Below are positions 33,616 to 37,699 of a stretch of DNA of 64,000 bases, piece by piece. The stretch comes from Candidatus Nitrosocosmicus oleophilus (lineage in GTDB: Archaea > Thermoproteota > Nitrososphaeria > Nitrososphaerales > Nitrososphaeraceae). A program made the position numbers and the translations under genes. The notes under the pieces were generated by a model. It worked only from the letters and a program-made list of their open reading frames with translations. It was not told where the DNA came from and ran no database searches. The stretch's first letter is position 1. Each line of letters starts with the position of its first letter. The stretch covers positions 248,001 to 312,000 of the forward strand of contig NZ_CP012850.1 in assembly GCF_000802205.1 (NCBI RefSeq). Reading direction: 5' to 3'.

Positions 33616-33631
33616 CTTTACAAATGTAAAG
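33616..33631. promoter_or_regulatory. operator-like palindrome upstream of the AsnC-TRASH regulator
   Basis: Perfect inverted repeat CTTTACAAATGTAAAG, 35 bases upstream of the regulator ATG. The same palindrome occurs twice more nearby (34394, 34431). Confidence 0.7.
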
Positions 33632-33666
33632 AGTAATATATCTTAATATAATAAATTGGTAACTGT

Positions 33667-34191
33667 ATGCCAGTCAGTCTGGACGAAATCGACGTGTCTA
33701 TTTTAAAGTCAATATTAGAAGATGGTAGAAAATCTTTTAGACAAATATCAAGAGAGACGGGTATAAGTACCCCAACAGTAAAAGCCAGATATGAAAGACT
33801 CGTAAATATTGGGTTTATAAAAGGTGTATTACCAGTTTTTGACTTTGAGAAAATTGAATCAGTCGAGAACGGGGAAAAGAATTTCATCCAGTTGGAAAGC
33901 CTCAATGAAAATGTAAAGAAAAGAAAAAATCTCTACAGGAGTAATCAGGATAACACTCTAAAAGAAGAAATACATGAAATTCAGAAAAAAATCTCAAGTG
34001 GGCTGGCAATAAATATTGTTTGTGATTTTTGCGAGGGTCCAGTTTTTGGTAAACCTAAAATCCTAAAGTTTGCAAATATTGAGCGATTCTTTTGTTGTGT
34101 TTCCTGTAAATCCGGTTATAGTCAAAAATACCGTGGTAGAATCGAATCAATAAAAAGAAAATATGAAGGAAAATCTGAGTTGGATGAATAA
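33667..34191 (+). CDS. Lrp/AsnC-type regulator with TRASH metal-sensing domain
   Basis: 174 residues. Residues 1-60 are a winged helix-turn-helix of the AsnC type (LDEIDVSILKSILEDGRKSF, then RQISRETGISTPTVKARYER). A charged linker follows. Residues about 117-150 are a TRASH zinc-ribbon-like metal sensor with Cys119-x2-Cys122 and Cys143/144 to Cys147. Archaeal proteins of this build (CopR/CopT type) control copper export. The palindrome 35 bases upstream suggests autoregulation. Confidence 0.85.
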   Translation: MPVSLDEIDVSILKSILEDGRKSFRQISRETGISTPTVKARYERLVNIGFIKGVLPVFDFEKIESVENGEKNFIQLESLNENVKKRKNLYRSNQDNTLKEEIHEIQKKISSGLAINIVCDFCEGPVFGKPKILKFANIERFFCCVSCKSGYSQKYRGRIESIKRKYEGKSELDE

Positions 34192-34212
34192 TATCTACTA
34201 TTACGATTTGTA

Positions 34213-34356
34213 TCAGTATCCATATTTTGAAGGATTTTGCTCTAACTCTTGTTTACACACAGCAGAACACAAGTACACTTTGTTGCCATTGATTTCCGAT
34301 ACATGTTTTGCAGTTTTTTCATCCACATTCATATTACAAACTGGGTCTTTTGCCAT
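34213..34356 (-). CDS. 47-residue YHS-domain metal-binding protein
   Basis: A short minus-strand frame from ATG 34356 to TGA 34213-34215 gives MAKDPVCNMNVDEKTAKHVS, then NKVYLCSAVCKQELEQ and NPSKYGY. This is a complete minimal YHS domain (DPVC-x-M-x-V ... Y-x-CS-x2-C ... NP-x-x-Y), with Cys7, Cys30 and Cys34 as likely metal ligands. Small YHS/TRASH proteins act in copper handling. The gene is convergent with the TRASH regulator, and the shared palindrome lies 37 bases upstream of its start, so co-regulation by that protein is likely. A + strand frame over the same bases (34163-34372) is its shadow. Confidence 0.75.
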   Translation of the reverse strand: MAKDPVCNMNVDEKTAKHVSEINGNKVYLCSAVCKQELEQNPSKYGY

Positions 34357-34393
34357 AATGTATTACAAGTGATAACATATTTAACTATGAAGA

Positions 34394-34409
34394 CTTTACA
34401 AATGTAAAA
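34394..34409. promoter_or_regulatory. operator-like palindrome upstream of the YHS gene
   Basis: CTTTACAAATGTAAAA, 37 bases upstream of the YHS start; it differs in one outer base from the copy at 33616, and the distance to the start is almost the same. Confidence 0.7.
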
Positions 34410-34430
34410 TACATAGCGACATGCATAATG

Positions 34431-34444
34431 TTTACAATTGTAAA
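34431..34444. promoter_or_regulatory. third operator-like palindrome, in front of the MFS gene
   Basis: TTTACAATTGTAAA keeps the half-sites TTTACA/TGTAAA with the same two-base centre spacing. It lies 108 bases upstream of the MFS transporter start and 22 bases from the second copy. Confidence 0.6.
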
Positions 34445-34552
34445 GCCACTGTCTTATCTATCCCTTTTCTTTAATAAACTAGATATGATTACAACTAAAG
34501 AAATATTATCGGCAAAAAATTTTGACTCACATATGTTTAGGAGGGTTGCGGT

Positions 34553-36055
34553 TTGACATCTACATCTACTTCTACTTCTACTTCTACTTCTACTTCTCCT
34601 TCTCCTTCTCCTTCTCCTTCTCCTTCTTCAATACTAGTATCAAACCCAAACAGATGGAAAGCATTAACCATATTGTCATTAGCTCAATTCTTGATAATCT
34701 TAGATACATCAATCATAGGAGTAGCTTTACCATCTATTCAAGAACATTTTGGCATAACTCAAACAGAGTTGCAATGGATTTTTAATGCGTATGTAATTAC
34801 TTTTGGCGCTCTATTACTACTTGGTGGTAGATTATCAGACATTTTAGGTCAACGTAAAGTCTTTACTATTGGATTTTTGATTCTTACTGGAGCTTCAGTC
34901 TTAGCAGGAATAGCAATGTCAAATGATATGCTCATAACTGCTAGAGTCTTACAGGGATTAGGCGCTGCTTTGATTGCACCTTCAGCTTTATCCATTGTGA
35001 TGAATCTATTTTCAGCAAACAAGTCTGAGATGAATAAAGCTATGGGTATATGGGGAGCAGCTGCACCAGCTGGAGGAACTGCAGGAGTATTTTTAGGAGG
35101 CATCATTACAGCTTGGTTTGACTGGCCATGGGTATTTTTGATAAACGTTCCTATCGGAATAGCAGTACTCGCTTTGATCCCCAAACTAATTCCCAAGGGA
35201 GTAAAAAAGAAAGGAAGTATCGACTACTTGGGTGCACTAACCATCACCGCATCTGTGGGTATATTGATTTATTCGATTGTAACAGCCAATGAAAATGGAT
35301 GGACATCAATACAAACAACTATACTTTTGTCTACATCAACAGCACTGTTTGTTGGTTTTATTGCGATTGAAAAAAGAAGTAAAGACCCATTAATTCCATT
35401 GCATATTTTCAAAATACCGAATCTTCTTTCTTCTAATATTGTAATGGCTCTATTGGGAGCTTCATGGGTTTCAATGTGGTTTTTCCTTAACCTATACCTG
35501 CAACAAATACTCCATTATGGACCTCTAGAGAGTGGGTTAGCATTGCTACCAATGACAGGACTAATAATGATGATGATGACTTGGTTAATGCCTAGATTAA
35601 TAGGTAAACTAGGTGTTAAGGAAAACCTAATTGTCGGCCTTGGCCTCTTAACTGTAGGACTAATTCTTTTTAGTTTTATTCCTGCAAATTCTGAACAAGG
35701 TGATAATAACCATATCTTCTTAGTTTATGTCCTACCAGCATCTATCATATCCGCATTGGGAATGTCTTTTTCCTATATTCCAATATTGGTTTCGGCTATA
35801 TCAAATGCAAGAAATGAAGACTCTGGTATAACCTCAGGTTTAGTTAATACAACTTACCAAATAGGATCGGCAGTAGGGTTAGCAATATTGGTTTCATTGT
35901 CGACCTCTCACTCCGACCTCCTAATTGATATTGGAACTAATATGTTAGAGGCATTGAATCAAGGATTTCACTTGGCTTTTATTGGTGCAGCAATTATCTC
36001 AGCCATTGCATCGTTAACAGCAGTATCATTCATAAGAACGAGGCCAAAGGAATAA
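34553..36055 (+). CDS. MFS drug-efflux transporter of the 14-helix (DHA2/EmrB) type
   Basis: 500 residues, TTG start preceded by AGGAGGG at 34539-34545. Residues about 2-25 are a run of Thr-Ser and Ser-Pro repeats encoded by a hexanucleotide array. From residue 36 about 14 membrane helices follow, with the family motifs LDTSIIGVALPSIQEHF, WIFNAYVITFGALLLLGGRL and SDILGQRKVF (motif A) and LQGLGAALIAPSALSIV. DHA2 proteins export drugs, metals-chelates or dyes with proton exchange. It sits next to the palindromes shared with the metal regulator, so metal-responsive control is possible. Confidence 0.9.
   Translation: MTSTSTSTSTSTSTSPSPSPSPSPSSILVSNPNRWKALTILSLAQFLIILDTSIIGVALPSIQEHFGITQTELQWIFNAYVITFGALLLLGGRLSDILGQRKVFTIGFLILTGASVLAGIAMSNDMLITARVLQGLGAALIAPSALSIVMNLFSANKSEMNKAMGIWGAAAPAGGTAGVFLGGIITAWFDWPWVFLINVPIGIAVLALIPKLIPKGVKKKGSIDYLGALTITASVGILIYSIVTANENGWTSIQTTILLSTSTALFVGFIAIEKRSKDPLIPLHIFKIPNLLSSNIVMALLGASWVSMWFFLNLYLQQILHYGPLESGLALLPMTGLIMMMMTWLMPRLIGKLGVKENLIVGLGLLTVGLILFSFIPANSEQGDNNHIFLVYVLPASIISALGMSFSYIPILVSAISNARNEDSGITSGLVNTTYQIGSAVGLAILVSLSTSHSDLLIDIGTNMLEALNQGFHLAFIGAAIISAIASLTAVSFIRTRPKE
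34561..34627 (+). repeat. hexanucleotide microsatellite in the MFS coding region
   Basis: About six ACTTCT units followed by about five CCTTCT units encode Ser-Thr then Ser-Pro repeats. Slippage by whole units keeps the frame and changes the length of the N-terminal tail. Confidence 0.85.
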
Positions 36056-36443: not shown

Positions 36444-37699
36444 TCAGGTCTTGGTTTCTTTCATCAAGAATATTACAACGATACCAGAAGCCAAACCTAT
36501 CCATGCAACTGCCTGAATTGCAACAAATGTGTTAAACAGGTCCGCTATAAATCCAATTCCAATGGCCCCAATAACAAAGCCCATGTCTCTCCAAAATCTG
36601 TAAACCCCCAAAGATGTAGCCCGCCAATTAGGATGTGCTATATCGCTAATTGCAGCAAGTAATGTAGGATACACCAAAGCAGTTCCCAAACCCAAAAATG
36701 ACATTCCTACAACCCAGCCCAAGGCTTCTTGTGAATATAGTATGGTCCATACCCCTATACTCTGTATGAACATTCCTGGAAAAATGAGAATTTTCCGTCC
36801 GATCTTATCAGACAGAAATCCGGTTGCAAGTTGTAAAACACCCCAAATTCCTGGATGCAATGCTTTTAGGAATCCAATATCATTTGCACTTAAACCATAA
36901 GAAGAAAAATAAAGGGTAAATAACCCCCAAGACACACCAAATATCAGATTATTTACTAACCCCGCTTGACTTATAGCAAGCAAGGAACGGTTCTTCCAAG
37001 ATGTTTGCAAAAAGACTTGAACGAACTTCAAGTTTCCGTTCATCTCAACATTATTCTCATCTACAGGTTTTGACTTATCCTGAGTTTCTATCTCCAGAAG
37101 AGTAAACTTTCTTGTATCTTTCACTATTAGCCACGATATCAATAGTCCAAGAACAGCAAAAATAATTCCAAGATAAAATGGGTATGGCTTTAATCCATAC
37201 ACAGATGCAATATAACCAGTGATAAAACCTACAATGGCCACAGCAAAATATCCTGAAAACTCATTGAATCCAAGTGCAAAACCTCTTTTCTCTTTTCCTA
37301 CAAGGTCGATCTTCATGTTCACTGTCATGGACCAAGCGAGACCTTGATTGATACCAAGAAATACGTTTGCAATTATGACCCAGTTCCAGTCTGGTGCTAA
37401 AATCAATATTATCGGAACAGGTATCCCAAATAACCAACCCAAGATTAATACATTTTTTCTACCCCATTTGTCAGAGATTTTTCCTGCAAAAAGGTTCAGG
37501 AATGCCTTGACTAACCCAAAACTTGCAATAAAGGATACTATCAATGCATTAGATTGAATATCAAATTCGTTTGCTCCAATAAGAGGAACTACAGTTTGTT
37601 CTAATCCAATCATGGATCCGACAAATGCGTTAACCAATACAAGAATTAAGAATTGATTAATGTTAGGACGTAGACCTAGTCTAATTGTTTTATCTTCAT
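36444..37699 (-). CDS. MFS transporter (12 helices)
   Basis: The intact frame begins at 37637 (397 residues) but starts inside the first membrane helix. Coding sequence clearly continues upstream (TIRLGLRPNINQFLILVL). ATG 37697-37699 followed by one extra A in the A4 run (complement of 37688-37691) gives MKIKTIRLGLRPNINQF and joins the frame, so the real gene probably starts at 37699. Motif A is LNLFAGKISDKWGRKN; a second copy is LATGFLSDKIGRKIL in the second half. About 12 helices with a charged central loop (about residues 185-215). Substrate unknown. Confidence 0.8.

Follow-up and report, generated by a model that had tools for sequence, protein, structure and literature searches.

Genes at the regulator locus

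The window, a 64,000-nt stretch of the single-contig, 3.43 Mb genome of Candidatus Nitrosocosmicus oleophilus (C1:248001-312000), holds neighboring genes for a CopR-like regulator, a YHS-domain protein and an exporter of the major facilitator superfamily (MFS). Its closest named relatives, Nitrosocosmicus and other Nitrososphaeraceae, are ammonia-oxidising archaea of soil. The regulator (33667..34191, + strand, 174 aa) joins an AsnC-type HTH to a TRASH domain, as judged from Pfam profiles, cysteines and an AlphaFold model. Its HTH_AsnC-type match (PF13404, about 8.3e-12) is over the cut-off, and this profile finds all 37 members of the regulator family; the Arc_trans_TRASH match (PF08394, 3.8e-5) scores 24.1 bits, below the Pfam cut-off of 27, and that profile matches 36 of the 37 at E <= 1e-3. 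Five cysteines (C119, C122, C143, C144 and C147) are invariant in the family. The linker between the two domains is variable, and a RAM domain is absent from the window regulator. The AlphaFold model, which has a mean pLDDT of 66 and served for domain order only, places the HTH before a low-confidence linker and a beta-hairpin/helix domain; matches to Lrp-family structures in the PDB are restricted to the HTH. The recognition helix, TPTVKxRxxRL, is nearly invariant among family members, as expected where its target is an unchanging palindrome. The host genome encodes two such regulators, 75% identical and with near-identical recognition helices, and scanning the whole genome for the archaeal TRASH domain gave these two, one YHS-type protein and nothing else.

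The YHS gene (34213..34356, - strand) encodes a 47-aa protein that matches the Pfam YHS profile at 5.5e-8, over its cut-off, and is presumed to be a small copper-binding protein. The MFS gene (34553..36055, + strand) encodes a DHA2-type exporter of 500 aa that scores 238.4 bits with TIGR00711 (efflux_EmrB; curated cut-off 230.2); its hydropathy profile gives overlapping segments that do not sort into a clear count of the fourteen helices expected for this group. A (TS)n(PS)n run at its N-terminus (34553-34640) arises from CTACTT/CCTTCT repeats and is absent from the orthologues of other genera. We considered a phase-variable repeat here and rejected it, since by eye the repeat units are multiples of three that leave the frame unshifted. 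A second, unrelated MFS gene lies close downstream (36444-37637, - strand), with no exact copy of the palindrome described next.

The probable operator palindrome

Three copies of the palindrome TTTACA-N2-TGTAAA, exact form TTTACANNTGTAAA, stand where the first-pass annotation of this DNA had placed them; 0.02 would be expected in the window from dinucleotide shuffles, none of 100 of which held three or more. O1 (CTTTACAAATGTAAAG, 33616..33631) lies in the regulator promoter, 35 nt before the ATG at 33667, and is proposed to mediate autoregulation. O2 (CTTTACAAATGTAAAA, 34394..34409) lies 37 nt before the minus-strand ATG of the YHS gene at 34356 and agrees with O1 at 15 of 16 positions, bearing out the earlier report of an almost identical 16-mer there. 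O3 (TTTACAATTGTAAA, 34431..34444) is assigned to the transcript of a mini-ORF and the MFS gene. The equal distances to the genes that the annotation had also claimed hold for regulator and YHS, but the MFS gene begins, with a TTG, 108 nt away; equal spacing (40 nt) is recovered for the ATG of the conserved mini-ORF that overlaps the MFS start. The gap between O2 and O3, 36 bp in the window, varies from 35 to 76 bp in relatives, so we rejected the idea of a single cooperative pair and assigned each to a separate promoter.

Five exact copies occur in the whole 3.43 Mb genome, and none of the reversed control sequence. All five are intergenic and confined to the two loci with AsnC-TRASH genes. 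The promoter enrichment at metal genes that the annotation had proposed to look for is thus found with the exact motif. Equal frequency in coding and promoter DNA, which the annotation had named as a refuting outcome, is not seen: the host's coding DNA holds no exact copy. Looser matching adds nothing: one-mismatch copies number 40, as do those of the reversed control, none of the 40 stands in promoter arrangement ahead of a convincing gene, and at up to two mismatches the window holds 15 matches against a background of 11.1. With such counts at background only the exact palindrome is informative, and an extended regulon based on one or two mismatches was rejected for this genome. A third host YHS gene (61 aa, C1:2166326-2166454, - strand) was likewise rejected as a target, having no site nearby at up to one mismatch.

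The predicted exporter transcript

Nine nt after O3 stands a TATA-like sequence, TTATCTAT (34454..34461, + strand), recognized in the sequence and found at the same place in the MFS promoters of relatives. It is followed by a leaderless mini-ORF of 23 codons encoding MITTKEILSAKNFDSHMFRRVAV (34485..34556, + strand), whose TGA, after an AGGAGG, overlaps the MFS start (TTGA). Lysine-rich mini-ORFs of 26-31 codons are similarly placed in four relatives (L118, L129, L145 and L153), and a fifth (L150) has only MISK and a stop. In Nitrosocosmicus and near relatives a Shine-Dalgarno sequence precedes the MFS start, and a mini-ORF of 23-31 codons ends there or runs over it; translational coupling of the two would be the simplest reading. 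Two other genera (L137 and L146) have no mini-ORF, and there the MFS gene is itself leaderless and starts 38 nt after the site. The MFS orthologues are 62-86% identical and retain the upstream site, for which reason we count the MFS gene in the regulon in several genera.

The second locus and the metal

The other two exact copies (C1:1535950 and C1:1536333) lie 37 nt before the gene of the regulator paralogue and 38 nt before that of a 746-aa ATPase. The latter has an N-terminal YHS domain, scores 578 bits as a copper-translocating P-type ATPase (TIGR01511, cut-off 397), and carries in sequence the membrane motifs CPC (in the metal-binding helix), YN and MSS of CopA. Between the two lies the gene of a 73-aa HMA chaperone whose best match is CopZ. 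The presence of a P1B-type CopA together with a CopZ-like chaperone identifies the metal as copper, and to judge from these genes copper is almost surely what the regulator senses. Beyond the second regulator gene is a truncated or frameshifted YHS remnant (L016 7210-7369, + strand; C1:1535209-1535368) with no exact operator, which reads as the decay of a duplicated regulator-YHS cassette.

In this paralogue (L016) and in many relatives the regulator gene is linked to those of a chaperone and a copper-type P1B ATPase. At the window locus we found no copA between 28001 and 40000, and tblastn gave no CopA remnant. The small metal circuit of regulator, YHS protein and MFS exporter first drawn for the window is supported in its essentials but incomplete: it missed the second locus with regulator paralogue, CopZ-like chaperone and CopA, the last being the central effector. 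Its assumption of metal export by the MFS protein fares less well, the family being that of DHA2/EmrB drug efflux.

Conservation of the site and its link to the regulator

Across 70 genomes of the family (Nitrososphaeraceae) we counted 184 exact sites, against 43 for the reversed control. In the roughly 21 genomes read in detail, 82 of 108 exact sites lie within 220 nt upstream of a regulator, YHS, CopA, HMA or MFS gene. Distances from site to start are narrow: 38 nt for 13 of 24 CopA genes, 31-45 nt for regulators and 37-41 nt in all 22 YHS promoters tabulated, the CopA and YHS starts of relatives mostly falling 37-41 nt past the site. Several of the 26 remaining sites are spaced in like manner, 38-40 nt ahead of plausible copper genes, namely a DUF4396-like gene (L131 and L142; the family was named from a relative in L213), a YtkA-like gene (L138, with a protein resembling it in L125), a second HMA-CopA gene (L140) and another YHS-like gene (L132).

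Throughout Nitrososphaeria an exact site stands just upstream of 58 of 76 regulator genes, and one with up to two mismatches upstream of 65, some of the site-less regulators standing at contig ends; Nitrosotalea, Nitrosotenuis and Nitrosopumilus are among those with such a site. In Nitrosopumilus-type contigs, few in number, it also occurs 34-41 nt before DsbA-like, DsbD_TM, HtrA/PDZ, DoxX, DUF4396 and plastocyanin-like genes, and in these marine contigs (L235, L239, L241, L242, L245, L229 and L213, Nitrosopumilales) as many as six sites fall within 10 kb.

Occurrence of the site follows that of the regulator. Site density is 1.35/Mb in the 51 genomes with a full regulator and 0.43/Mb in the 19 with none or weak matches only (Mann-Whitney p = 7e-6, which overstates independence because the genomes are related to one another), while control density is 0.26/Mb in both groups (p = 0.35). 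Genomes without a full regulator are thus slightly above control (0.43 vs 0.26/Mb); the ten with no regulator match at all have 0.29/Mb. Conservation at a fixed position across genera, together with this co-occurrence, strongly supports the original suggestion that one operator, probably recognized by the TRASH regulator, serves regulator, YHS and MFS genes.

Promoter geometry and proposed mechanism

In 35 of 46 CopA/YHS promoters the palindrome is followed, about 10 nt on, by a TATA-like octamer, and the ATG comes some 29-30 nt after that. These transcripts are therefore probably without a leader, and the operator adjoins the BRE. The YHS gene of the window conforms, with a TATA box identified by promoter comparison, TTAAATAT (34377..34384, - strand), 10 nt after O2. 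TATA position is less sharp at regulator genes; in this family the start of an AT-rich box lies some 4 nt past the site (AT peak +4 to +10), and in the window the TATA-like TAATATAT (33634..33641, + strand) nearly touches O1. The regulator genes of Nitrosopumilales tend to have their TATA at a greater distance from the site, and autorepression may therefore not hold everywhere.

The palindrome is very probably the operator of a copper-sensing AsnC/Lrp-TRASH regulator, the CopR of ammonia-oxidising archaea, for which sequence comparison suggests a model of dual activation and self-limitation. A dimer would read the half-sites TTTACA and TGTAAA through its HTH domains, and the TRASH cysteines would bind Cu(I). 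Bound just upstream of BRE/TATA at copA, yhs and the MFS gene, the regulator would, with copper, aid TFB/TBP and raise transcription; at its own gene, where TATA almost touches the operator, binding would block TFB/TBP and so limit the regulator's own synthesis. The two paralogues would share the five operators, and the window locus (regulator, YHS and MFS) with the second locus (second regulator, CopZ-like chaperone and YHS-CopA) would detect an excess of copper, buffer it and export it. We infer both the effector and the sign of regulation, the latter from promoter geometry.

Promoter geometry also bears on the strongest alternative, that the TRASH regulator is a copper-dissociable repressor in the manner of CopY, the apo-protein blocking transcription and copper releasing it. 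The near contact of operator and TATA at the regulator's own gene would suit such a repressor, as would the loss of DNA affinity by Pyrococcus furiosus CopR in vitro with copper or silver (PMC7830388). However, at copA, yhs and the MFS gene the site lies at fixed spacing upstream of BRE and TATA and leaves both free, an activator's position, and P. furiosus CopR shows equal occupancy whether copper is present or not and is an activator in vitro (PMC7830388). We therefore regard simple repression as unlikely, though the most credible of the alternatives to dual control.

There is a smaller chance that the regulon answers not copper but a different metal of the soft or thiophilic kind (silver, mercury, cadmium or zinc) or envelope thiol/disulfide stress. 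TRASH and YHS domains alone are not copper-specific, and in marine relatives the site precedes DsbA-like, DsbD_TM, HtrA/PDZ and DoxX genes; but the response to copper stress usually includes disulfide isomerisation and proteases, a plastocyanin-type gene is also among the marine targets, and the most constant target of all is a P1B-1-type CopA adjoining a CopZ-like chaperone. It is very improbable that the palindrome is read by a different factor, some other AsnC/Lrp protein, with the TRASH regulator just one of its targets. Archaeal genomes contain several AsnC-type proteins with similar HTH domains, but the site falls to near background where the TRASH regulator is lacking (0.43 against 1.35/Mb; 0.29/Mb in the ten without a match), among the genes that bear the site the regulator's is the most widely conserved, and the half-sites recur in the motif bound by the related CopR (PMC7830388). 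Chance, or functionless AT-rich promoter sequence, would fit the background level of two-mismatch matches but is at odds with the 0.02 exact copies expected in the window and is refuted by strict positional conservation across genera.

Comparison with known copper regulators

The bacterial regulators CueR, CopY and CsoR share with the proposed system the copper-responsive control of CopA and CopZ; these proteins and their operators are unrelated to the regulator and operator described here. In type the system is already known, as archaeal CopR. The CopR proteins of P. furiosus and Thermococcus onnurineus likewise have an N-terminal AsnC-type HTH and a C-terminal TRASH domain (PMC7830388), a divergent or adjacent copA in a clustered multi-gene regulon, and a palindromic site directly upstream of BRE/TATA. 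P. furiosus CopR binds TTNNCAWWWTGNNAA directly upstream of the BRE, activating copA in vitro and repressing copR (PMC7830388). Half-sites TTNNCA/TGNNAA are common to both, with a spacer of 3 in the P. furiosus consensus (TTNNCA-W3-TGNNAA) and of 2 here. Unlike those two proteins, the present regulators lack a C-terminal His stretch, come as two paralogues, use a strict 14-bp palindrome, and have the 47-aa YHS gene and a DHA2 MFS gene among their targets.

The CopT/CopR system of Saccharolobus solfataricus (copTMA; named in PMC7830388) likewise groups a regulator with a chaperone and a P1B ATPase in an archaeal cop cluster, although its chaperone CopM carries TRASH, where we find a CopZ-like HMA chaperone and a separate YHS protein; this comparison covers the genes. 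Copper-related promoter motifs are known within the same class from Nitrososphaera viennensis, but they differ (TTCSGSMTTTGWACYANT and RATTTAAABATAGATTTAAATAATAAS) and were found under copper limitation (PMC7785015); that 2020 transcriptome study leaves regulation of the Cop genes an open question (PMC7785015). In the open-licence literature we did not find the operator, the layout of two loci and two regulators, the YHS and MFS targets or the class-wide extent, and the class-wide regulon in these copper-dependent nitrifiers appears to be new to description.

A probable copper regulon in ammonia-oxidising archaea

The marine sites, seen on few contigs, suggest that the regulon there grew into an extracytoplasmic copper-stress program. 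We give about even chances to a broader reading, in which an ancient, class-wide copper regulon with one exact 14-bp operator has recruited, beyond CopA, a DHA2 MFS exporter, which may carry copper-ligand complexes and is made through a copper-controlled leaderless mini-ORF, and in marine lineages an extracytoplasmic disulfide/protease program of DsbA, DsbD, HtrA and plastocyanin genes.

Ammonia-oxidising archaea live by copper enzymes yet need protection from copper, and both its supply and its toxicity are discussed as niche factors for them. An exact operator with a named regulator offers a directly testable answer on Cop regulation and a genome-wide list of targets, and the operator might be used to mark copper-stress genes in metagenomic and metatranscriptomic data.
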